A stretch of 64,000 nucleotides of DNA from Coriobacteriia bacterium. GTDB lineage: Bacteria; Actinomycetota; Coriobacteriia; Anaerosomatales; SLCP01. Positions 15,878 to 27,367 of this stretch are shown here, one piece after another (within the stretch, counting starts at the first letter, position 1; every line of letters starts with the position of its first letter). A program made the position numbers and the translations under genes. The DNA lies in assembly GCA_030603745.1 (NCBI GenBank), contig JAUVXE010000011.1, positions 1 to 64,000 of the forward strand, written 5' to 3'. A model generated the notes under the pieces. It did not search any database. It was not told where the DNA came from and saw only the letters and a program-made list of their open reading frames with translations.

Positions 15878-15952
15878 TGGTGGGCCCGGCAGGATTCGAA
15901 CCTGCAACCAAGGGATTATGAGTCCCCTGCTCCACCATTGAGCTACGGGCCC
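15878..15952 (-). tRNA. tRNA with CAT anticodon, probably tRNA-Ile2 (lysidine type)
   Basis: Read on the minus strand, a full cloverleaf of 75 nt can be drawn: acceptor GGGCCCG/CGGGCCC, D-arm, anticodon loop CTCATAA, T-arm with GGTTCGAAT and encoded ACCA. The GACTCATAATC stem-loop and TTGGT variable loop look more like Ile2 than elongator Met, but the choice is not certain. The 5' 48 nt are duplicated at 27319-27366 by integration of the adjacent element. Confidence 0.93.
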
Positions 15953-15953
15953 C
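15905..15953. repeat. Left attachment site (49-bp core direct repeat)
   Basis: This 49-bp stretch is identical to 27319-27367 and in the same orientation; the flanking bases differ on both sides. It overlaps the 5' part of the CAT tRNA: acceptor 5' strand, D-arm, anticodon arm and start of the variable loop. The two copies bound the integrated element. Confidence 0.96.
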
Positions 15954-16717: not shown

Positions 16718-17202
16718 CGGGATACCTCCTTGAGTGCGGCGTCGAACCCTGGTAGTTCGCGGAAGCGAGGAGAGACGTACTTGTAGCCGCCGCGCTCGAT
16801 GATGCTTCCACCGTGCACATCGCCGAAGTCATTCCAGCAGTCATCGCAGATGACCTTGCCGTCAGGGGCGACCCGAAGGAACTTGATGCGGAAGATGGCT
16901 CCTTCCTCGGAGTGACACTGACACTCGCCCCACACAGCCGGATGCGAGACCGCCGCCTCCACGAGTGCCTGTACCTTCTCGGCTTCTACGAGGGAGCCGT
17001 CTGCGAGCTCATAGTTATCCTCGAAGAACCTCTTGGCGACGTACCATTGGTCTGCGGGATTGTCGGGGTTCCACGCGATCATGCCGCCTTCTTCCGGTGA
17101 GTCCTCGGCGTTCACGCTCACACCGGACAGATCTTCGCCAACGATGTAGGGGCGCATCGGCTGTAGCAGCTTCTTGCGGTAGAGTCGCTGTAGGTCACTC
17201 AT
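16714..17202 (-). CDS. Hypothetical phage protein with CxC/CxxC motifs
   Basis: About 162 aa from ATG at 17202 (MSDLQRLYRKKLLQPMRPY). The middle has HPAVWGECQCHSEEGAI followed by VICDDCWNDFGDVHGG, so four cysteines could bind zinc. The C-terminus ends EVSR, sharing its last codons with the upstream gene because both contain the same junction sequence. ATGA overlap with the HAD-like gene implies coupled translation. Function unknown. Confidence 0.65.
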   Translation of the reverse strand: MSDLQRLYRKKLLQPMRPYIVGEDLSGVSVNAEDSPEEGGMIAWNPDNPADQWYVAKRFFEDNYELADGSLVEAEKVQALVEAAVSHPAVWGECQCHSEEGAIFRIKFLRVAPDGKVICDDCWNDFGDVHGGSIIERGGYKYVSPRFRELPGFDAALKEVSR

Positions 17203-17753: not shown

Positions 17754-17971
17754 GAGGACCTCGCGCTATTGCCGCCGATCCCCGCAAGGAGGAACGCGAG
17801 CACGCCAAGGACCTCTGCCCAGGGCGAGGGGACGGACAGAACGTTCAGGGCGAACCAGTACACGAGGTAGCCCCAGGCCACCCCGAGGCCCAAGAAGAAC
17901 AGGCCGGCCGCCACAATGAGCAGGAAGGCGACTACGACCACCAGCCCCCCGCTCGTTGCACTCTTGCTCAT
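17750..17971 (-). CDS. Small two-helix membrane protein
   Basis: 73 aa from the ATG at 17971, which overlaps the integrase stop (ATGA). Two hydrophobic helices (about residues 9-33 and 40-65) are separated by a short turn. There is no signal cleavage motif. Function unknown; holin-like, superinfection-exclusion and host-membrane roles are all possible. Confidence 0.6.
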   Translation of the reverse strand: MSKSATSGGLVVVVAFLLIVAAGLFFLGLGVAWGYLVYWFALNVLSVPSPWAEVLGVLAFLLAGIGGNSARSS

Positions 17972-19056
17972 ACTGCCTCTCTTTCCTGGCTCTCGTGCCA
18001 CGCATCCAGACGGCGGAGGATCGTGTCCTCGTCGTTCGGGATCAGGTGGCCGTAGATGTCCAGCGTCGTTGATGCGTTCTTGTGGCCCATCTGGGCCTGG
18101 ACGTACTTGACCGGGGCGCCCGCCGAGAGCGCCCACGTCGCGAACGTGTGCCGGAAGTCGTGGGCCGAGAAGCCCTCGATCCCGGCCGCCTCAAGCGCCG
18201 GGGCCAGCACACGGCGGAGGAAGTTGCGGCCGAGGAACCGGCCCCGCGGCGACGGGAACACGATCCCCTCACTCGAGGCGGGGCAGGCGAGCTTCCATCG
18301 CCGGAGCTCCCGGACTGCCACCTCGCTCAGGAGCACCGTCCGGCTCGACCCCTCCGTCTTGGGCCGGCAGAGGCCCGAGCCCTCGATGTGCTGGCGGTCC
18401 ACCGTGATCGTCCTGGCCTTGAGATCGACCCGATCCCAGGTGAGCCCGAAGATCTCTCCCCGCCTAAGCCCGATGTGGGGCCACACGAGGATGAGGGATC
18501 GGTATGCCTCGGGCACCGCGGCCACGAGCGCTCGGTGCTCCCTCGGCGTGAGGACCCGTACCCCTGTCCGGGGTATCCTGGGGGCCCTCACGCGATCTGA
18601 CGGGTCCACTTTCAGCCGCCCATCGTCCACCGCGCGCCTCAGGATGGCCTTGAGGGTGGTGAGGGTTCCCTTCACTGTGGAGGGCGCCTTGGTCCTCGAG
18701 AGCTCGGCCACGAAGGCCCGAACGTCCGCCTTGGTGAGGGACTGGACCGGCCGATGGGCACCGAAGTGCTCCTTGATGCGTCGAACGTGTGTTCGATATA
18801 TCTCGAGCGACCGCTCTCCGACGAGTGCGCTCTTGAGGTACTCGTCCGCGAGGGAGCCGAGCGAGGTGCTCTGCACCTTCTTCACTGGCTCCCCCGCGGA
18901 CAGGGCCAGCAGGGCCTCGGCCTCGGCCCGCTGTGCCTCCTTCTTCCGATCGAAGGTCCCGACCCACACCTCGCGAGACACGCCGTCGATTACGTGGCGG
19001 ACCTTCACCCGGTAGCGGGTCTTGCCGGCCTTCGTTGTGTACGACGAGATGGACAT
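17968..19056 (-). CDS. int: Tyrosine recombinase (phage integrase)
   Basis: The 362-aa integrase has an N-terminal AP2-like arm-binding domain (YRVKVRHVIDGVSREVWVG), a SAM-like core-binding domain (about residues 65-160) and a catalytic domain with GLRRGEI (Arg I), the beta-hairpin Lys region, HDFRHTFATW (His-x-x-Arg), MGHKN and the nucleophile in LDIYGHL. The start follows AAGGAGG. The arm-binding domain fits the paired boxes at both ends of the element. It would catalyse integration at the CAT tRNA. Confidence 0.96.
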   Translation of the reverse strand: MSISSYTTKAGKTRYRVKVRHVIDGVSREVWVGTFDRKKEAQRAEAEALLALSAGEPVKKVQSTSLGSLADEYLKSALVGERSLEIYRTHVRRIKEHFGAHRPVQSLTKADVRAFVAELSRTKAPSTVKGTLTTLKAILRRAVDDGRLKVDPSDRVRAPRIPRTGVRVLTPREHRALVAAVPEAYRSLILVWPHIGLRRGEIFGLTWDRVDLKARTITVDRQHIEGSGLCRPKTEGSSRTVLLSEVAVRELRRWKLACPASSEGIVFPSPRGRFLGRNFLRRVLAPALEAAGIEGFSAHDFRHTFATWALSAGAPVKYVQAQMGHKNASTTLDIYGHLIPNDEDTILRRLDAWHESQEREAV

Positions 19057-19106: not shown

Positions 19107-19286
19107 TCACGCGAGCGGCCTTGCTCTCAGCCACTCGCGCAAGTCCTCGACGTGTATGAGGAGCCGCTTCCTGCCAACCCGCCTGAACGGGATTCCGAGC
19201 TCGCGCCATGTCTCGCTGACCGTCTTGGAGTGCATCTTGAGGTAGTCTGCGACCTCATCAACACCCATGACCTCGGAGTGGGTCAC
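19107..19286 (-). CDS. Excisionase-like helix-turn-helix protein
   Basis: 59 aa from a GTG at 19286 that overlaps the preceding stop (GTGA). An HTH_17/AlpA-like domain reads MGVDEVADYLKMHSKTVSE then FRRVGRKRLLIHVEDLREWL, typical of small Xis or helper proteins. It lies 50 bp upstream of int on the same strand, the common xis-int arrangement. It may direct excision or regulate int. Confidence 0.85.
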   Translation of the reverse strand: MTHSEVMGVDEVADYLKMHSKTVSETWRELGIPFRRVGRKRLLIHVEDLREWLRARPLA

Positions 19287-19461: not shown

Positions 19462-20144
19462 CTACCCCTTGAGTACCGCCATCGGGATAAGCCAGTCCTC
19501 CAGCTCGACCAGATCCTCCTGCCACGCCATCACCTCCTGGATGTCCTTGTACGCGAAGGGCAGCTCGTCAGCGACGGAGCCCGCCGAGATCACGGAGATC
19601 CCGCACTCCTTCATCCGCCGCATCCACTCAAGGACCTGATCGTCGCTACGCTTGGCCTGCCCGCGGCTCATCACCCTGCCGGCTCCGTGTGAGCAGGAGC
19701 CCCACGAGTCGGGGTTGTCGAGCCCGACGCCGACAGCCGTCGCCGTCCCCATCGAGCCGGGGATCGTGACGCGCCCACGCGCCCGCACCGCGCCCTTGCG
19801 GTGAACGATGCCGACGCTCCCGCCCCCGAGGCGCTCCTGGGCCGCGAAGTTGTGGCGGGTGTCGAACTCGTCGAGCTCGATCACGGAGGACCCGACGACC
19901 TTCTCGAGGGCCGAAACCGCTGAGGAGACGATGCGCTCCCGGTTGATCCGGGCCCACTTGACGCAGTAGTCCATCGCCGACCAGTAGTCGGCGAAGTCCT
20001 GGGTGCCGCGCATCAAGTACGTGATCCCCTCCCACTCATCGCCAGAACACTGATCGTAGAAGTCGCACACCCGCTTGCCGAGGTTGCGGCTCCCGGTGTG
20101 GACCGTGATCGCAACGTTGCCGCTCGAGAGCTCGCGCTGGATCT
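19462..20144 (-). pseudogene. rtcB: RNA ligase RtcB, C-terminal fragment
   Basis: About 226 codons encode the C-terminal two thirds of RtcB: VHTGSRNLGKRV, HNFAAQE, VHRKGAVRA (the GMP-accepting His region), IPGSMGTATAV and SCSHGAGRVMSR. The frame is open upstream only to a TAA near 20166, with no good start. The N-terminal half lies at 25451-25907 on the opposite strand. Both halves share AGATCC at their broken ends, and joining there restores FVEI-QRELSSGNVAITVHTG in frame. Confidence 0.9.
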
Positions 20145-20317
20145 GATCGAGCGAGGGAGGTGATTACTGCTACTACCACGGAAAGGTCCTGACCGGCCTC
20201 ATGGCCGTCACCGGACCAGACGGGCTTGCGAGCCCCGTCGCGAACCTGATCCACAGGAGGACCAAGCAGGTCCTCCACACCCCGGCGCCTGAGCCCACCC
20301 CGGACTCGGACGAGTAA
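20145..20317 (+). pseudogene. 5'-truncated small phage gene (CYYHGK protein)
   Basis: The frame reads SSEGGDYCYYHGKVLTGL and continues to a TAA at 20315-20317, ending in an acidic tail PEPTPDSDE. A Cys/Tyr/His motif of this kind occurs in small phage zinc proteins. No start codon with a ribosome site precedes it, and it begins at the same place where the rtcB C-terminal half is broken, so its 5' end was probably lost. A short form from ATG 20201 is possible but has no ribosome site. Confidence 0.55.
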
Positions 20318-20333
20318 CCACCACAGAAGGCCA
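20316..20333 (+). repeat. Leader repeat AACCACCACAGAAGGCCA, copy 1
   Basis: This 18-bp sequence is identical at 21147-21164, and its first 10 bases recur at 25427-25436. Each copy lies 14-29 bp upstream of a start codon. It may be an operator, an mRNA leader element or a recombination remnant. Confidence 0.7.
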
Positions 20334-20358
20334 GCTCGAACAAACAGGAGGATCACAC

Positions 20359-20880
20359 TTGGCGCACTACGGAGCACCGCCCAAGACGGAGTACAAGGTT
20401 CTGCCCCCGGACGTGTATGAGGCCGCCATTACCGGGATCGAGGAGATCGAGAACGTATTCTACAACCCGGTCAACGACGACCCCAAGAAGGCCACGCAGC
20501 TCAAGTGGACCGCGAAGGTCCGTGAGCCGGGCTCGGAGGGCGTCACCCTCACGATGTTCTCCGGGGCCTACTTCTCCCGGCACAAGCGCAACAAGCTCGC
20601 CAACTGGTGTCGGGTCCTGGACCCCGCCTTCGACATCGACGTGTGCTACTCCTCGGAGGAGGAGTTCCGCTCGAAGATGATCGGCGCCCCCTTCCGGGTC
20701 GCGGTCAAGAACAAGGAGGTCGAGAAGGACGGGGAGACGAGGGTGTACAACGAGGCGGCCGGCGACCTCCTCCCCTCCAAGCTCTCGCCGCTGACGAAGG
20801 AGGAGCTCGACGCGATCCTGCTCGAGAGTCTCGGGGCCACCCCCGTCGCGCAGGGTGGCGGGGGCGAGATCCCCTTCTAG
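20359..20880 (+). CDS. Phage single-stranded DNA-binding-like protein
   Basis: About 173 aa from a TTG at 20359 with GGAGGA 8 bases upstream. The body reads like an OB-fold type phage protein (VYEAAITGIEEIENVF, LKWTAKVREPGSEGVTLTMF, APFRVAVKNKEVEKDG). It ends with GGGGEIPF, very like the acidic DDIPF tip of SSB that recruits partners. It is the first gene of the rightward replication module, upstream of a nuclease and a DnaB-like helicase. The SSB assignment is inferred from the tail and context. Confidence 0.65.
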   Translation: MAHYGAPPKTEYKVLPPDVYEAAITGIEEIENVFYNPVNDDPKKATQLKWTAKVREPGSEGVTLTMFSGAYFSRHKRNKLANWCRVLDPAFDIDVCYSSEEEFRSKMIGAPFRVAVKNKEVEKDGETRVYNEAAGDLLPSKLSPLTKEELDAILLESLGATPVAQGGGGEIPF

Positions 20881-20921
20881 GCGACCCACGCCGGGCCCGG
20901 CTGTCGAGAAGGAGGACATGA

Positions 20922-21077
20922 ATGGCAGGCCAGAGAGCCAAGGAGGATTGCATCCAGGGGCTATTGTGCCGCTACTGGATGCGCTGCCCGGCCGGACGGA
21001 ATGTCGCGAAGTGCCTGCGGCTCCTCTCGCGGGCCGACTTCCAGGGGATCGATTTCGATCCCGAGGAAGTGGGCTGA
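20922..21077 (+). CDS. 51-aa cysteine-containing phage microprotein
   Basis: ATG at 20922 follows AAGGAGG. The peptide starts MAGQRAKEDCIQGLLCRYW and continues with CPAGRNVAKCLRLLSRADF to an acidic end. Four cysteines (positions 10, 16, 22 and 31) could bind a metal. The spacing and ribosome site make it a better candidate than the overlapping longer frame. Function unknown. Confidence 0.6.
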   Translation: MAGQRAKEDCIQGLLCRYWMRCPAGRNVAKCLRLLSRADFQGIDFDPEEVG

Positions 21078-21146
21078 CCGCGCCGGAAAGTGGTGGGGCT
21101 CCTCGGGTTGCACCCCGGGGAGCCCCTGCACCCAGGTCCTATCGCC

Positions 21147-21164
21147 AACCACCACAGAAGGCCA
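21147..21164 (+). repeat. Leader repeat AACCACCACAGAAGGCCA, copy 2
   Basis: Identical to 20316-20333, 29 bp upstream of the TTG-started gene at 21194. The surrounding 21078-21193 stretch otherwise holds no gene. Confidence 0.7.
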
Positions 21165-21193
21165 CCCTGAACGGGTGAGTGTAGGGAGGATGC

Positions 21194-21499
21194 TTGAACA
21201 TTGTCGCATATCAGGCGGATGAGTTCATCCGCTTGGCAGAAGAAACGTTTGTGCGCCGTTACGGGCCCGTGCCGGAACGGTTGATCGTGGACCTCCCGCC
21301 GGGCAAGGAGGAGCGGCCCTCGTATCCGCTGGGCACGAAGGTATGCTCCTGTTGCGGGGCGCCGTCTGGCCGGAAGGTGCGGCTGGACGGGCTCAACTAC
21401 TACTGCAAGAAGCCGGAGTGCCGGAGGGCCGAGTACCATCATCGGTACTCCGACTCGCAGGCGCGGACGGGTGGCCTGCCCGTCGTGGTGCTCCAGTGA
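21194..21499 (+). CDS. Zinc-ribbon phage protein, unknown
   Basis: 101 aa from a TTG at 21194 preceded by GGGAGGA. The second half has VCSCCGAPSGRKVRLDGLN followed by YYCKKPECRRAEYHHRY, a CxC/C..CxxxxC zinc-ribbon pattern. The stop overlaps the next start (GTGA). It may be a small DNA-binding or recombination accessory factor; function not recognised. Confidence 0.7.
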   Translation: MNIVAYQADEFIRLAEETFVRRYGPVPERLIVDLPPGKEERPSYPLGTKVCSCCGAPSGRKVRLDGLNYYCKKPECRRAEYHHRYSDSQARTGGLPVVVLQ

Positions 21500-22320
21500 C
21501 GACGCCCGCACAGGCCCGCCAGACGAGCATCGGCCGGGTCTACGAGCAAGAGGGCAGGGACGTTCAGTTCTTGTCGGTCACCACGGCGCTCCAGGCACTC
21601 CCGAAGGATGCGCTCATGTATTGGGCCGCCCGCGAGGTCGCGGGAGTCGCGGTCGAGATCATCGAGGGGCGGGCGCCCCTGCCGGTCGGGGCGGATGGCG
21701 AGCCGTTGGCAGGCGACGATCTCCACAAGTGGCTCAAGACGGAGCCGCTTCGGCAGCGAGACAGCGCCGGCAACATTGGCGACCTGGTTCACGGGTACGC
21801 CGAGGACTTCATGCGTGCCGGCCTGACGGTCGAGGAGATGCACGAGAAGCTCGAGGCGATCGAGGACAAGAAGGTCAGGGCTCGCGTCAAGCAGTTCGTC
21901 CAGTGGGTCGAGGACTTCCGGGTGGAGCCGATCGCCGTCGAGGTCACGATCTACAACGACGAGCACGGGTACGCCGGGTCATGCGACCTGATCGCCCACG
22001 TCCCCGGATACGGGGTGGTGCTCGTGGACCTCAAGACGAGCAAGGGCATCTACGGCTCGGTGGCGCTCCAGGCGATCGCCTACGCCCGTGGGGAGTACAT
22101 CCTGACCGACGAAGGGGAGCGACTCAAGCTCCCTGAGATCAACATGAGTGCAGTCCTGCACATCAAGGCCCGTTCCTACGTGTTCCGCAAGCTGGACGCA
22201 AGTGACGAGTGCTTCGAGCACTTCGTTCATCTCCTGCACACCAAGCGAGAGATCCTGCCAGCGCTTGATGGCCGGCTCCTCCATCGGATTGAGCCGGGGG
22301 TGAGGGCGTTTGGCGGTTGA
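21496..22320 (+). CDS. PD-(D/E)XK nuclease family protein (RecB/Cas4/phage exonuclease fold)
   Basis: 274 aa from a GTG at 21496 coupled to the preceding gene. The nuclease core is seen in AVEVTIYNDEHGYAGSCDLI (E...GxxD) and VVLVDLKTSKG (D-x-K), followed by ALQAIAYARGEY, the Q-x-x-x-Y motif of RecB-type nucleases. Similar phage proteins act as 5' exonucleases in recombination. Its place between an SSB-like protein and a helicase fits replication or recombination of the element's DNA. Confidence 0.85.
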   Translation: MTTPAQARQTSIGRVYEQEGRDVQFLSVTTALQALPKDALMYWAAREVAGVAVEIIEGRAPLPVGADGEPLAGDDLHKWLKTEPLRQRDSAGNIGDLVHGYAEDFMRAGLTVEEMHEKLEAIEDKKVRARVKQFVQWVEDFRVEPIAVEVTIYNDEHGYAGSCDLIAHVPGYGVVLVDLKTSKGIYGSVALQAIAYARGEYILTDEGERLKLPEINMSAVLHIKARSYVFRKLDASDECFEHFVHLLHTKREILPALDGRLLHRIEPGVRAFGG

Positions 22321-23743
22321 GCAGGTCAGGGTGCCGCCTCATAGCATCGAGGCGGAGCAGAGCGTCCTTGGCTCAGTGATTCTTAACCCATTCCTGCTTG
22401 ACGAGGTTGGCCAGATCATCCGAGCCGAGGACTTCTACCGCCCCGGGCACGGACAGATCTTCGAGGCGGTCACCGAGCTCCGCGAGATGGGGCATGAGAT
22501 CGACCTGATCTCGGTCGCAAGCAAGCTCGAGGACCGGAAGGCGCTCGAGGCGGTCGGGGGGCGCGGGTACCTGCTCGAGCTCTCGGGCGTGGTCCCAAGT
22601 TCCACGAACGCGACGCGCTACGCGAAGATCGTAAGGGAGCGTGCGCTGTACCGTCGCCTGGTCCAGATCGGGAGCGAGATCTCCACCCTTGGGTACGAGT
22701 CGTCCGGGAACATCGAGGACGACCTTGGTCAGGCAACGTCGCTCGTGATGGGTGTCTCGATCGCTGGGCAGAAGCAGGCCCTCCCGGTCGCTACCGTGTG
22801 GGATCAGCTCCTCAAGGAGCTCAGGAGCGGTCCGGCTAACTACATCAGCCCGCCACACCTCCCGAAGGTGCACGCGCGGCCTGGCGCCCTCGTGGTCCTG
22901 GCGGCCGGCACGTCGGTCGGCAAGACGGCGGTCGCGCTCGACTGGACTGACGCCTGGGCTGGGACCATGCAGACCTGGACGGCGTTCCTCGAGTACGAGA
23001 TGAGCGAAGTGAGTCTCGTCTCCCGCCTGGCCTCGAAGCACTCCGGGATCTCGATGGTCCGCATGGAGGAGGGGCTGTCTGAGGCCGAGCTTGCGCTGGT
23101 GGAGTCGGCCGGCGAGCGCGTCCGGCGCCACCGGCTCCTGGTCGAGGCGGTCACCTCGGACGTGGGGGCGCTCTTTGCCAAGATTCGCCACGCCGCCTCG
23201 AAGGGGTGCTCAGTGGTCGTGGTGGATCACTTGGGACTGATCCCGTTTCGGGTCCCCCGCGGCATGAATCATGCCAAGGCGGTCGGGACGGAAGTCACCA
23301 ACAAGCTCAAGCGGCTTGCGAACGACCTCGGGATTGTGATCGTCCTGCTGTGCCAGGTGAACCGGGAGGGGCAGAAGCGCATCGGCCCCAACCCGTGGGT
23401 CACGAAGAATGACCTGCGAGACAGCGGCGAGATCGAGCAGGATGCCGACATTATCATCGGCCTGAACCGGATCTCTCGGGAGGACGATGAGGCCCTGTTC
23501 CTTCGCGTGTGCGACGACATCGGGATCGACCCCTACGAGGTGGATACCGACATCATGCGCTACGGGGTTCTCAAGAACCGCAACGGCCCTCTGTTCCACA
23601 AGTACCTCGGCTTTGCCGGGGAGTCCATGTCCTTCTACGACCTGTTTGCGCCAAGATCGCTGGCCCCAAGGGCTGAGCCTGAGCCAGAGGTGCAGCCCCC
23701 TCCGGCAGAGCAGATCTCGATGATGGCGCCAGGAGAGGAGTGA
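22310..23743 (+). CDS. DnaB-like replicative helicase
   Basis: 477 aa from a TTG at 22310 overlapping the nuclease gene by 11 bp. The N-terminal DnaB domain begins VPPHSIEAEQSVLGSVILN. The RecA-like motor has Walker A AAGTSVGKTA, Walker B SVVVVDHLGLI, then LKRLANDLGIVIVLLCQVNR and the SGEIEQDADIIIGLNR motif before the C-terminal end. It would unwind DNA at the element's replication fork. Presence of its own helicase implies autonomous replication when excised. Confidence 0.93.
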   Translation: MAVEQVRVPPHSIEAEQSVLGSVILNPFLLDEVGQIIRAEDFYRPGHGQIFEAVTELREMGHEIDLISVASKLEDRKALEAVGGRGYLLELSGVVPSSTNATRYAKIVRERALYRRLVQIGSEISTLGYESSGNIEDDLGQATSLVMGVSIAGQKQALPVATVWDQLLKELRSGPANYISPPHLPKVHARPGALVVLAAGTSVGKTAVALDWTDAWAGTMQTWTAFLEYEMSEVSLVSRLASKHSGISMVRMEEGLSEAELALVESAGERVRRHRLLVEAVTSDVGALFAKIRHAASKGCSVVVVDHLGLIPFRVPRGMNHAKAVGTEVTNKLKRLANDLGIVIVLLCQVNREGQKRIGPNPWVTKNDLRDSGEIEQDADIIIGLNRISREDDEALFLRVCDDIGIDPYEVDTDIMRYGVLKNRNGPLFHKYLGFAGESMSFYDLFAPRSLAPRAEPEPEVQPPPAEQISMMAPGEE

Positions 23744-23746
23744 GAA

Positions 23747-24118
23747 GTGCATCATCATACGCCGTTTCCCACGCTTTCACATGCCGACTTCCCGGTCGCG
23801 ACGGGCCGTGACGAGCCCAAGATGGTGCGGATGTTCCGCGAGGCGACCGGGAAGATGGCCGGCACCTTCGCGGCCAAGAACGCCGACTACGGCAACTCGT
23901 TCGTGGACCTGTTCGAGCTCTACGAACGGGAGCTCGGGAAGGGTAAGGGCGACCTTGCGATCCTCCCGCGCATCCTGGACAAGGCCGGGCGGATCGAGAA
24001 CCTGACCCTTCGGGCTAACGCTCAGGTCAAGGATGAGAGTGTCGCCGACACCTATCTCGACCTGGCCTGCTACGCCCTCATGGGCTACCTGGCGATCACC
24101 AAGCTCCGCGATGGGTAA
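23747..24118 (+). CDS. Nucleotide modification-associated domain 1-like protein
   Basis: 123 aa from a GTG at 23747 after GAGGAG. The core FAAKNADYGNSFVDLFELY, then ILPRILDKAGRIENLT and SVADTYLDLACYALMGY, matches the small all-helical Nmad1/DUF1599 group related to MazG-type enzymes. Family members occur in phage replication modules and are thought to act in nucleotide metabolism. It overlaps the following nuclease gene by 8 bp. Confidence 0.78.
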   Translation: MHHHTPFPTLSHADFPVATGRDEPKMVRMFREATGKMAGTFAAKNADYGNSFVDLFELYERELGKGKGDLAILPRILDKAGRIENLTLRANAQVKDESVADTYLDLACYALMGYLAITKLRDG

Positions 24119-24524
24119 CTCGAAGGGCAACGCGGGCGAGCGGGGGGCCAAGGAGCTACTCGAGTCCCTCGGGTGGCTCGTCGCGGACAAGGAAACCTCC
24201 GGCCTGGCCGGGGACGACCTGTTCGCCAGGAGCCCCGAGGGCGTCTGGTACTCGATCGAAGTGAAGCATGTGCAGAGTCTCCAGCCAGCGCACGAGAAGC
24301 AGGCCCGCAGGCAGGCGGCGGAGCGCGAGGCCGCAATCCTTGAGGCCCGCAGGGCCCCGCGCCAGTCGATCGTCAAGAGTCTCGACATTGCATACGACAA
24401 GAGGCATTGGCTCCTGATGTGGAGGCCCTCGGGGTTCCGGGTGGGATCTCAGTGGGTCGTGCTCAGGGGCAACGGACGCAACAACAGGATCGAGGTGTGG
24501 GATTGCGAGGCAAGTCAGGACTGA
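24111..24524 (+). CDS. Holliday-junction resolvase-like endonuclease
   Basis: 137 aa from the ATG at 24111. The pattern NAGERGAKELLESLGWLV followed by SGLAGDDLFARSPEGVWYSIEVKHVQ gives the E...D...E-x-K core of an Hjc/VRR-NUC-type PD-(D/E)XK nuclease. A basic helix (EKQARRQAAEREAAILEARR) follows. It would resolve branched DNA made during replication or recombination of the element. Confidence 0.75.
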   Translation: MGNSKGNAGERGAKELLESLGWLVADKETSGLAGDDLFARSPEGVWYSIEVKHVQSLQPAHEKQARRQAAEREAAILEARRAPRQSIVKSLDIAYDKRHWLLMWRPSGFRVGSQWVVLRGNGRNNRIEVWDCEASQD

Positions 24525-24739
24525 GGCGGCCCCGGACCGAGAGGCGGGGCGACCGGGTGGTCAGGGTGTGGGACCCGTCCACGTTCTTCCAGGTCAGCGA
24601 GTACCGCCGGGCGCGTAAGAGCCCTGCATCACTCGAGCTCGAGGGGCTGAGGTACCGCCCCCTGAGCCGCGAGGAGGCGCGGATCGAGCTCTCGAAGGGG
24701 CGCTCGCTACTCCGCGGTTTCGCCGGGGCTACTGCATGA
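24503..24739 (+). CDS. Small basic phage protein, unknown
   Basis: About 78 aa from a TTG at 24503 (GAGG 7 bases upstream); GTG 24497 is an alternative. It starts with a strongly basic stretch (RGKSGLRRPRTERRGDRVVR) and continues WDPSTFFQVSEYRRARKSPA. It overlaps the resolvase-like gene by 22 bp and the next microgene by 4 bp (ATGA). The charge suggests nucleic-acid contact. Function unknown. Confidence 0.5.
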   Translation: MRGKSGLRRPRTERRGDRVVRVWDPSTFFQVSEYRRARKSPASLELEGLRYRPLSREEARIELSKGRSLLRGFAGATA

Positions 24740-24810
24740 GGGAGTGCGCTGCGTGCGGAGAGGCGTACCCGGCCTCGGAGAAGTGTTGCCCCTGGTGCGG
24801 GGGGACTTGA
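24736..24810 (+). CDS. 24-aa zinc-ribbon microprotein
   Basis: The peptide MRECAACGEAYPASEKCCPW is followed by CGGT and a TGA stop. The CxxC...CCxxC arrangement is a complete zinc knuckle. Its ATG overlaps the upstream stop (ATGA), consistent with coupled translation. Similar tiny zinc ribbons can be adaptor or DNA-binding peptides. No family assignment is possible by eye. Confidence 0.5.
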   Translation: MRECAACGEAYPASEKCCPWCGGT

Positions 24811-24857
24811 GGATAGTCGGAGAGGGGCGCGTGCCGCCCCGGAAGTCAGGAGAGTGA

Positions 24858-25274
24858 ATGAGCGAGAAGATGAAGATCACCACCGAGCGGGTGCGCCTGC
24901 TCTCGCAGAAGGGCGGAGAGCCGCTCCTCGCCACGAGGTTCTGGATCATGGAGAGCGGGAAGGGCTGGCTCATCACGGACGGCGGACGATTTATGCCAGA
25001 CACTCGGGGCTACATCGCGCAGCCGATCCGCCCCGAGGGGTTCGCCCTGAACCTCCAGACCGCAAAGCGGATGATCCTTCGCGGGGTTGTGCGGGAGGTC
25101 AAGGCGCAGTTCGGCCTCCTCGTGGCTGGGATCGCCGCCCACTTCCGCCGCGCCGCGGAGAGCGTGCTTGCGGAGTACCACTTCTGGCGTGACCGAATCG
25201 AGCATTGGGGCGCCCTCTTGGAGCAGGAGCTCGTCGAGGCACAGGCCGTCGAGATCGTCCTGGAGCAGCGGTAA
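24858..25274 (+). CDS. Hypothetical phage protein
   Basis: 138 aa from an ATG at 24858 with AGGAGAG upstream. N-terminal half is beta-like (RFWIMESGKGWLITDGGRF), the C-terminal half is helical (VKAQFGLLVAGIAAHFRRAA then LLEQELVEAQAVEIVLEQR). No motif recognised. It ends with a TAATG overlap with the next small gene. Confidence 0.65.
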   Translation: MSEKMKITTERVRLLSQKGGEPLLATRFWIMESGKGWLITDGGRFMPDTRGYIAQPIRPEGFALNLQTAKRMILRGVVREVKAQFGLLVAGIAAHFRRAAESVLAEYHFWRDRIEHWGALLEQELVEAQAVEIVLEQR

Positions 25275-25405
25275 TGCGGGCCTGCCGGCGCCACTCGATC
25301 GGCGCGTGCCAGCGATGCCCCATGACGGGGCGCGACCGCAAGCTGTCCACCCGGACCAAGGTCGTGTGGACCAACTGCCGGGGCGAGGTCATTCGTCGTC
25401 CGTGA
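25274..25405 (+). CDS. 43-aa Cys/His phage microprotein
   Basis: ATG at 25274 overlaps the preceding stop (TAATG). The peptide begins MRACRRHSIGACQRCPMTGR and has a fourth cysteine in WTNCRGEV, giving a possible C-x(8)-C-x2-C zinc site, and is strongly basic. Function unknown. Confidence 0.5.
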   Translation: MRACRRHSIGACQRCPMTGRDRKLSTRTKVVWTNCRGEVIRRP

Positions 25406-25450
25406 GCGGCCCGAGAGTGCAAGTCCAACCACCACAAGGAGGGACTGAGT

Positions 25451-25945
25451 ATGCTTGAGTTTGTGAAGTCATGGAGTCCGAGGCTCGACGTGGCGGCGGC
25501 CGACCAGGTGGGGCACTTCATACGGTTCCCCCACCTCGTTGACCTGTGCCTCATGGCGGACGCCCATCCCGGATATGGGGTGCCGGTCGGAAGCGTCCTG
25601 GTCACCGAGGAGTGCGTCGTCCCCAGCGCGATCGGCGTAGACATCGGGTGTGGGGTGAGGACCGTGGTTCTCGACCTCTCAGCCGACGACATCGGACACG
25701 AGGTCGCGGCAAACTGTCTCCGCGAGCTTTCGGAGCGCCTGCCGGTGGGCTTCAATGTCCACGGGGACGACTTCCCCCCCTACGACATGCGACTGATCGA
25801 GGCCCCCGAGGGCGTCGAGCGCGTGATCGACGGCCTGTGTCTCGACGAGGGGAGGATCGCTCGCCAGCTCGGCACCCTCGGCGGGGGCAACCACTTCGTC
25901 GAGATCCCGAGTACGCGGAGTCACCAAACTGGCAGCACGGCATGA
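25451..25945 (+). pseudogene. rtcB: RNA ligase RtcB, N-terminal fragment
   Basis: The start follows AAGGAGGG and a partial copy of the leader repeat. About 152 codons match the RtcB N-terminus: LMADAHPGYGVPVGSVL, SAIGVDIGCGVRT (metal-binding Cys) and LGTLGGGNHFVEI. After AGATCC at 25902-25907 the frame loses similarity and stops at 25945. The missing part is at 20144-19462 on the minus strand. Intact RtcB joins 2',3'-cyclic phosphate and 5'-OH RNA ends; this half alone lacks the GMP-accepting His. Confidence 0.92.
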
Positions 25946-26046
25946 CCATCATCACGAAGCGGATCGATTCCGATCGCTTCCACCTCGAGCAGGTCCCCAT
26001 CGTCGGGTACGAGGCCCTGTTCAACGACACGCTGTACAGCGGTTAG
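25908..26046 (+). pseudogene. 5'-truncated gene fragment downstream of the rtcB breakpoint
   Basis: A frame different from rtcB reads EYAESPNWQHGMTIITKR and ends VGYEALFNDTLYSG at a TAG. It looks like the end of a phage protein, but a 34-aa protein from the ATG at 25942 cannot be excluded; that ATG has no ribosome site. Its 5' end is lost exactly where RtcB is broken. Confidence 0.45.
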
Positions 26047-26053
26047 GAGGACC

Positions 26054-26770
26054 ATGAAGATCACGCCCGTAAGCCACGAGTGGAGCGGCTCGCTCGCCCG
26101 TCGCTCCGGCGCCCCCACGGGGGTTGTCGTCCACCACGCAGCTCACCCTAGATGTGGGGCGGCCACGATCCACGGGTGGCACATCGCGCGGAAGTGGAAG
26201 GGCATCGGCTACCACTTCGTCGTCCGCAAGGATGGCACGATCGAGACGGGCCGGCCCGAGTGGGCAATCGGCTCGCACACCATGAGCGTCAACAGCCGGA
26301 TCGGCGTATGCCTCGAGGGCAACTTCGAGACGGAGGTACCCCTGGCAGCACAGCTCGCAGCCCTCGCGTGGCTCATCCATGTGTACCTTGCAGGCAAGTA
26401 CGGCAAGCTCGTCGTGACCCGCCACAGGGACCATGCGGCGACCTCGTGCCCCGGCAAGAACCTCCCGTGGCCCATCCAGGCCGCTCCTGCGGCCCCTGCG
26501 GCGCCCAGCCGGCCTCAGCCCGCTCCGGCCACCAAGCCCGCCCCTGCGCGCCCCACGCGGCGCGAGGGAGCCAGGAAAGACGCGCATGTCCGGGAGATCC
26601 AGCGGCGCCTGAACGTGAAGCGCGCTCGGGACGGCCGGGGCAGGGCCCTGGTTGTGGACGGCGACTTCGGCCCGCGCACCAAGGAGGCCGTGATGAGCTT
26701 CCAGAGGGCCCAGAAGATCGGCATTGACGGCGTGGTCGGCCCCGAGACGTGGGCCCGACTCTTGCGGTAG
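26054..26770 (+). CDS. N-acetylmuramoyl-L-alanine amidase endolysin with peptidoglycan-binding domain
   Basis: 238 aa, start after AGGAGG. The N-terminal Amidase_2/PGRP domain has zinc ligands in GVVVHHAAHP and the RHRDHAATSCPGK segment, plus GYHFVVRKDGTIETGR. A Pro/Ala linker (about residues 140-170) leads to a PG_binding_1 domain (VREIQRRLN, VVDGDFGPRTKEAVMSFQ, GIDGVVGPETW). It would degrade host peptidoglycan at lysis. Its holin partner follows 11 bp later. Confidence 0.94.
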   Translation: MKITPVSHEWSGSLARRSGAPTGVVVHHAAHPRCGAATIHGWHIARKWKGIGYHFVVRKDGTIETGRPEWAIGSHTMSVNSRIGVCLEGNFETEVPLAAQLAALAWLIHVYLAGKYGKLVVTRHRDHAATSCPGKNLPWPIQAAPAAPAAPSRPQPAPATKPAPARPTRREGARKDAHVREIQRRLNVKRARDGRGRALVVDGDFGPRTKEAVMSFQRAQKIGIDGVVGPETWARLLR

Positions 26771-26780
26771 GGAGGACCCC

Positions 26781-27053
26781 TTGTATCAGTACGCCTTCAC
26801 CATCGCTCTGCGCGCTGCCGTGCGTACCCTGTTCCAGGGTGCGGCCGGCGCCTTCACGGCGGTGACGGTCACCATCCTGTCCGTTGAGGACCTTCGCGTC
26901 CAGTCGCTCGTGATCGGGGCCGGGCTCCTTCACGCCGGCCTCACGGCCGTGGCGGCCTTCTGCCAGAACTTCTCCGAGGCCCTCAAGGACGAGAGGGACC
27001 GCGAGCGCGAGGCCCCCGACGAGCTCCCGTTCGAGCCCTACGATTACCTCTAG
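26781..27053 (+). CDS. Putative phage holin
   Basis: 90 aa from a TTG at 26781 with GGGAGGA upstream. It has a basic/aromatic N-terminus, two hydrophobic stretches (about residues 14-32 and 38-62) and a charged C-terminal tail (EALKDERDREREAPDELPF), the layout of r1t-type holins. Placement directly after an endolysin supports the call. No signal peptide is present on the endolysin, so a holin would be needed for its release. Confidence 0.75.
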   Translation: MYQYAFTIALRAAVRTLFQGAAGAFTAVTVTILSVEDLRVQSLVIGAGLLHAGLTAVAAFCQNFSEALKDERDREREAPDELPFEPYDYL

Positions 27054-27318: not shown

Positions 27319-27366
27319 CAACCAAGGGATTATGAGTCCCCTGCTCCACCATTGAGCTACGGGCCC
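27319..27366 (-). pseudogene. Truncated CAT tRNA (5' part) at the right junction
   Basis: The minus-strand sequence keeps the acceptor 5' strand, D-arm and anticodon arm but lacks the T-arm and CCA end. Upstream on the minus strand, TATCAT at 27398-27393 could be the -10 box of the original tRNA promoter; it matches the -10 of the tRNA-Asn gene. If so, the native promoter now drives this dead fragment. Confidence 0.75.
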
Positions 27367-27367
27367 C
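27319..27367. repeat. Right attachment site (49-bp core direct repeat)
   Basis: Identical to 15905-15953. This copy holds only the 5' 48 nt of the CAT tRNA; the T-arm and 3' acceptor are missing, so it is not a functional tRNA. Confidence 0.96.

Follow-up and report, generated by a model that had tools for sequence, protein, structure and literature searches.

How did one gene of a prophage come to lie in two halves on opposite strands, with a piece of another reading frame attached to each broken end? We addressed this question in a draft genome of a Coriobacteriia bacterium (assembly GCA_030603745.1; 2.14 Mb in 28 contigs, completeness 98.5%), using as the window bases 1–64,000 of contig C26 (JAUVXE010000011.1, 81.7 kb). 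The gene is rtcB, and it is located in the 11.4-kb remnant of a prophage that had integrated at a gene for tRNA-Met. We consider it likely that this remnant was broken at 3 places, one block being inverted and the neighbouring block lost, and the region would then be an ordinary decayed and inactivated prophage remnant. Two identical copies of a 49-bp sequence lie in the same orientation 11.4 kb apart, one (15905–15953) over the 5' part of an intact tRNA-Met(CAT) gene on the minus strand (15878–15952, found with ARAGORN) and the other at 27319–27367. When 47 bp of this repeat were used as query, 2 matches were found within the window, with 0 expected from 100 shuffles. We read these copies as the putative attL and attR sites of an integrated element.

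The 5' half of rtcB (25451–25907, plus strand) covers positions 3–160 of the 426 positions of PF01139 and 67–215 of the 459 positions of phrog_1075, and the 3' half (19462–20158, minus strand) covers positions 175–426 and 215–441 of the same 2 families, respectively. The gene is split near 20.15 and 25.91 kb, and its halves meet on phrog_1075 without a gap. RtcB matches with an expectation value (E) of 1e-20 or better were found in 26 other genomes when 336 genomes of the class were searched, and in all 14 of the RtcB loci fetched, which are from the same order, both halves are on one strand of a single locus, where they overlap or are separated by no more than 33 bases. Because the halves abut on phrog_1075 and lie together in these 14 relatives, we conclude that rtcB was cut a single time, in the loop preceding the HxGSRN stretch, and without measurable loss. 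When the 3' half was used as query, the split gene was the sole RtcB match in this genome at E 1e-20, and of the 8 further genomes in the family, 7 have an RtcB match. The host may be without a working RtcB, or the gene may have been missed by the draft.

At both ends of the split, which we call J1 and J2, there is an abrupt change in the frame that carries the coding signal. At J1 (approximately 20146–20160), the minus-strand signal of the rtcB 3' half ends and a plus-strand frame begins (fragment 1, 20147–20317, characterized by the peptide CYYHGK and the first frame of the presumably inverted block). At J2 (approximately 25900–25912), the signal passes, near 25905, from the rtcB frame to that of fragment 2 (approximately 25909–26046, plus strand). 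Fragment 1 is preceded by an in-frame TGA (20144–20146) and ends with TAA (20315–20317), so that an earlier reading made from the sequence only, which had it run from 20145 to 20317, placed its end correctly and its start slightly early. Its sole in-frame ATG, GTG, or TTG is the ATG at 20201, and the 4-base Shine-Dalgarno match of this codon is 14 bases off, which is too far. Fragment 2 ends with TAG (26044–26046), seven bases ahead of the amidase gene. Although no stop interrupts this frame as far back as 25543, the part before approximately 25900 is out of frame with rtcB and has a negative coding score; past the junction, the only ATG, GTG, or TTG is the ATG at 25942, which has no Shine-Dalgarno match. 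In 11 of 12 gene starts of the element that were tested, this match comprises at least 5 bases, and the exonuclease gene has 4 (a 13th position, that of a kinase-like gene, was left out because it is not a start codon). The training set for the codon scores consisted of 18 further frames of the element, 2 of which (g16054 and g25277) are themselves near zero. Fragment 2 scored 0.59 bits/codon, a value reached by none of the 8093 open windows taken from outside the annotated frames, and fragment 1 scored 0.25 bits/codon, reached by 88 of 6805; these windows overlap, hence the trials are not independent. With a more lenient null, to which windows of the fragments themselves also contributed, the counts were 9/8650 for fragment 2 and 187/7361 for fragment 1, and the short stretches upstream of the 2 ATGs were not significant alone (799/14138 and 1182/15774). 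Fragment 2 is clearly gene-like and fragment 1 moderately so. The sequence-only reading had proposed that a gene fragment without its 5' end lies directly beyond each rtcB end. Both frames indeed have a normal stop and no usable start, and the simplest reading is that they are the 3' ends of longer genes; this truncation is inferred, as searches of phage records, PHROGs, Pfam, and 296 genomes of the class yielded no full-length homologue against which the loss could be measured.

For rtcB taken alone, a plain two-break inversion that cut this gene and one other would be a sufficient account. Such an inversion would leave a 5' and a 3' half of each cut gene, one per junction, that is, two 5' and two 3' halves, as the sequence-only reading had argued, and this prediction fails here. 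The 5' half of the second gene would be due immediately to the right of 25.91 kb on the minus strand, but no credible one is found there: the sole start-bearing candidate (GTG at 26030) scores 0.14 bits/codon overall and at most 0.44 in single 15-codon windows, is not preceded by a Shine-Dalgarno match, and is antisense to the strongly coding fragment 2, which leads into the amidase gene. A plain two-break inversion is therefore very improbable. What the 2 junctions hold is three 3' ends and one 5' end, a count that the earlier reading had made correctly provided that both frames are truncated genes.

This count would be obtained as follows. From left to right, the ancestor would have carried a minus-strand series of int, xis, rtcB, the replication genes, ssb, and the gene of fragment 1 and, beyond it, late genes, the gene of fragment 2, the endolysin gene, the gene of a small membrane protein, and attR. 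Breaks in rtcB and in the genes of fragments 1 and 2 would have freed 2 adjacent blocks. The block from rtcB to fragment 1 (approximately 5.76 kb, 20.15–25.91 kb) would have rejoined in reverse, whereas the segment separating the genes of the 2 fragments would have been lost, and with it the two absent 5' ends and, probably, the virion genes. The result would be 2 junctions with three 3' ends and one 5' end. Nearly any break in dense phage DNA hits a gene, and 2 further cut genes are thus expected and not remarkable. That an extra deletion, probably of late genes, accompanied the inversion had already been suggested from the sequence; it is the simplest account of the 4 fragments and agrees with the length of 11.4 kb and with the lack of detected virion genes. 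The att repeats, the abutting rtcB halves, the reading frames at J1 and J2, and the lack of detected virion genes are observed, whereas the ancestral order, the lost content, and the single event are inferred.

The content of the lost block was approached through the genes that are left. None of the 24 frames of the element indicated a virion gene in the PHROGs search. Genome-wide searches for structural families covered the capsid family PF05065, which had no match in the whole genome, and the terminase family PF03354, which had a single match above the cut-off, on contig C7 and in a region carrying its own integrase. The lost block therefore probably held late genes, as the sequence-only reading had supposed. 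A further family, phrog_2, chosen as a terminase, had matches in 11 of 14 control genomes; its identity is therefore doubtful, and its 2 matches in this genome were not used.

Searches with the 2 fragments yielded only chance matches. PHROGs, Pfam, and the sequences of the PDB gave no match to either fragment, and NCBIfam gave none to fragment 1. With fragment 2, NCBIfam returned an aminopeptidase family (E 0.089; 11.3 bits, where the cut-off is 529), which we rejected as chance. In tblastn searches of phages, neither fragment found anything up to E 1; at E 10, fragment 2 had one match (E 6), located in the corresponding stretch of an aminopeptidase-like frame in an unverified record, which was also rejected as chance. 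The 2 aminopeptidase matches agree because the same motif is seen by both. Among the 296 class genomes (its own included), fragment 1 had one other match (E 0.005), which overlaps transketolase-like frames of the opposite strand and is considered chance, and so is the one other match of fragment 2 (E 0.04). In 296 genomes of the phylum, fragment 2 had 4 other matches (E 0.03–0.07), rejected likewise; of the 3 that were placed, 2 lie opposite carbamoyl-phosphate-synthase-like frames and one inside a nitrogenase-like frame (names given by reading). The idea that fragment 2 could be the end of a phage metallophosphoesterase found no support in a comparison with one short phage phosphoesterase. 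An IMG/VR scan with exact peptide patterns, which finds close relatives only, gave nothing for fragment 1, fragment 2 being too short for this method. Finally, when 149 loci were compared locally, fragment 1 was absent from all of them at E 0.05, and the only matches of fragment 2 were the chance ones described above.

Several of these observations weigh against an inversion accompanied by a deletion. The junctions are known from a draft assembly, the coding signal of fragment 1 is only moderate (88/6805), and, as the searches returned no full-length version of fragment 1 or fragment 2, there is no relative that shows the intact order. In addition, phrog_1224, which the amidase matches at E 1e-9, is an endolysin family that PHROGs assigns to 'head and packaging', and for the small membrane protein there is a match to a tape-measure family (E 0.14). 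We read the former match as reflecting the lysin domain of the amidase and the latter as chance. A PHROG miss is also no proof that divergent virion genes are absent.

The sequence around the junctions bears on how the rearrangement could have occurred. The sequence-only reading had noted GGTGA in phase at both ends. At J1 this pentamer reads on the plus strand, at J2 on the minus strand, and the 11.4 kb contain 14 plus-strand and 21 minus-strand copies of it. Since approximately 61% of window pairs of this size drawn at random from the element have an inverted 5-mer in common (83% if any orientation is allowed), GGTGA is not supported as a breakpoint signal, is no evidence of mechanism, and is attributed to chance. 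The J1 and J2 windows have no repeat of more than 6 bases in common (a shared 6-mer occurs in 39% of random pairs), and none of the 25 longest of the 40 inverted repeats listed pairs J1 with J2. This argues against a programmed, phase-variable segment that would switch rtcB on and off, for which inverted repeats would be looked for at the segment ends. Flipping 20.15–25.91 kb would reunite the rtcB halves in order, but the other junction would keep two 3' ends back to back, and we regard such a switch as extremely improbable.

Two other routes to the observed arrangement were weighed. The same end state could have been reached in 2 or more steps, by a deletion or an inversion followed by a later break at the same junction. 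Prophages decay stepwise, and a Helicobacter pylori prophage survey (PMC11321410) gives rearrangements including inversions, as well as deletion, as inactivation routes. However, because there is no leftover of the missing 5' pieces and no detectable loss from rtcB, the second break would have to hit almost the same position as the first junction, a few bases away at most. A multi-step history is for this reason rather unlikely, and the single event is somewhat favoured. It is also unlikely, to a similar degree, that J1 and J2 are artefacts of assembly or of whole-genome amplification and that the cells contain an intact phage. The assembly is a draft of 28 contigs, and the chimeras produced by multiple displacement amplification, which may or may not have been applied here, are mostly inverted. 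Chimeric rearrangements are described as a known product of this method in PMC1855051. An artefact would nevertheless require 2 false junctions in one contig, both inside an element with matching att repeats, and the missing block was not found elsewhere, given that the genome has no PF05065 match and that its PF03354 match is in a region with an integrase of its own. An inversion together with a deletion thus stays our preferred explanation.

Several of the genes between the att sites are those of a phage. A tyrosine-type integrase (17968–19056, minus strand; PHROG integrase families, best E 6e-81) is located approximately 2 kb inward of attL and is followed by an excisionase-like helix-turn-helix protein (19107–19286, minus strand; phrog_66, E 8e-7). 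On the plus strand are a single-strand DNA-binding-like protein (ssb, 20359–20880; weak match to phrog_378, E 0.09), a phage exonuclease of the PD-(D/E)XK/Cas4-like type (21496–22320; phrog_298, E 9e-32), a phage DnaB-type replicative helicase (22310–23743; phrog_19, E 1.5e-72, and PF03796), an amidase endolysin with a peptidoglycan-binding domain (26054–26770; PF01510, PF01471, and phrog_1493), and the small membrane protein (26781–27053; phrog_4316, of unknown function, E 0.001), which by its position may be holin-like. A nucleotide-modification-associated protein is also encoded. As expected of a defective prophage, an integrase is found between direct att repeats at a tRNA gene, several genes belong to phage families (exonuclease, DnaB, RtcB, amidase, integrase, and the excisionase-like protein), at least one gene is demonstrably broken (rtcB, on 2 strands), and virion and packaging genes appear to be missing, the phrog_1224 match aside and with a sensitivity limited by divergence. 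The minus-strand gene at 17202–17750 matches weakly phrog_1238 (phage phosphoheptose isomerase, E 1e-5) and phrog_415 (polynucleotide kinase, E 2e-4) and has no match in NCBIfam; it possibly forms an RNA-repair pair with rtcB.

Two repeats were observed in addition. An inverted repeat of 23 bases with one mismatch (25230–25252 and 25827–25849, 574 bases apart) reaches from the gene before rtcB into the rtcB 5' half, 58 bases from J2. No such pair occurred in 200 triplet shuffles of the element, one other such place exists in the 64-kb window (43460/46047), and a partial third copy is present at 25535–25552. The motif AACCACCACAGAAGGCC is found at 20316–20341 and 21147–21172 (88% over 26 bases), just upstream of ssb and of a small gene, respectively, and in a shorter version at approximately 25430, upstream of rtcB. 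It is perhaps a phage regulatory site, and its 18-base core has no exact copy in IMG/VR.

The same genome contains a second, apparently unrelated prophage on contig C7 (G000:C7, approximately 123664–152000; L171, L172), with integrase-like and terminase-family genes as well as portal-, protease-, and tape-measure-like genes (the latter 3 named by reading only). The rearranged element could in principle be alive as a satellite packaged by this prophage, since it retains att sites, the integrase, the excisionase-like, single-strand-binding-like, exonuclease, and helicase genes, and the lysis genes. Families for packaging hijack or capsid remodelling had no match in the element, but several of its frames match nothing at all. 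We consider a living satellite very improbable. If the element were one, a single inversion-deletion would have made a satellite out of a phage.

The relatives of this phage were sought with several of its genes. Exact peptide patterns of the helicase, the rtcB 3' half, and ssb, suited to close relatives only, found none in IMG/VR. An alignment search with the exonuclease retrieved 79 IMG/VR and 53 genome loci, and among the 149 loci of the local comparison, most of which were fetched by the exonuclease gene, relatives of the helicase of the window were present in 5, of its integrase in 29, of its rtcB in 2, and of its amidase in 39, many of these amidase matches lying over a low-complexity linker. 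Apart from the copy in the window, ssb had one relative (39%) both in 69 genomes of the order and in the 336 genomes of the class, and this relative sits in a different integrated element. The exonuclease was found in 3 others of the 296 phylum genomes, and in the one contig examined only the exonuclease is common. Two actinobacteriophages, Streptomyces phage Samy and Arthrobacter phage BaileyBlu, resemble the element in their Cas4-like exonuclease (phrog_298, 30–35% identity). Unlike it, none of the 149 loci compared has fragment 1 or a credible fragment 2, and ssb is matched in one other element only. Within the limits of these searches, the phage thus appears to be without a close relative in the collections searched. 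PMC3203893 reports rtcB from Subcluster K1 mycobacteriophages and suggests that a phage-borne RNA ligase relative protects against host tRNA cleavage. The present element shares a phage-borne RtcB relative with these phages, but carries its rtcB in 2 pieces on opposite strands.

For H. pylori, PMC11321410 proposes inversions inside the prophage as one way of its inactivation. Those defective prophages resemble the remnant described here in being incomplete integrated elements with internal inversions; they differ in host and phage, and here the junctions, the cut genes, and the att sites are all contained in one 11.4-kb piece. The locus would be a clean case of prophage decay, in which the count of fragments alone separates an inversion with deletion from a plain inversion. 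The inactivation of prophages by rearrangement and deletion and the presence of rtcB in phages are both already known, and beyond this case of decay little changes. A flipped block, a cut RNA-repair gene, and absent particle genes would be an ordinary fate for the leftovers of a prophage.

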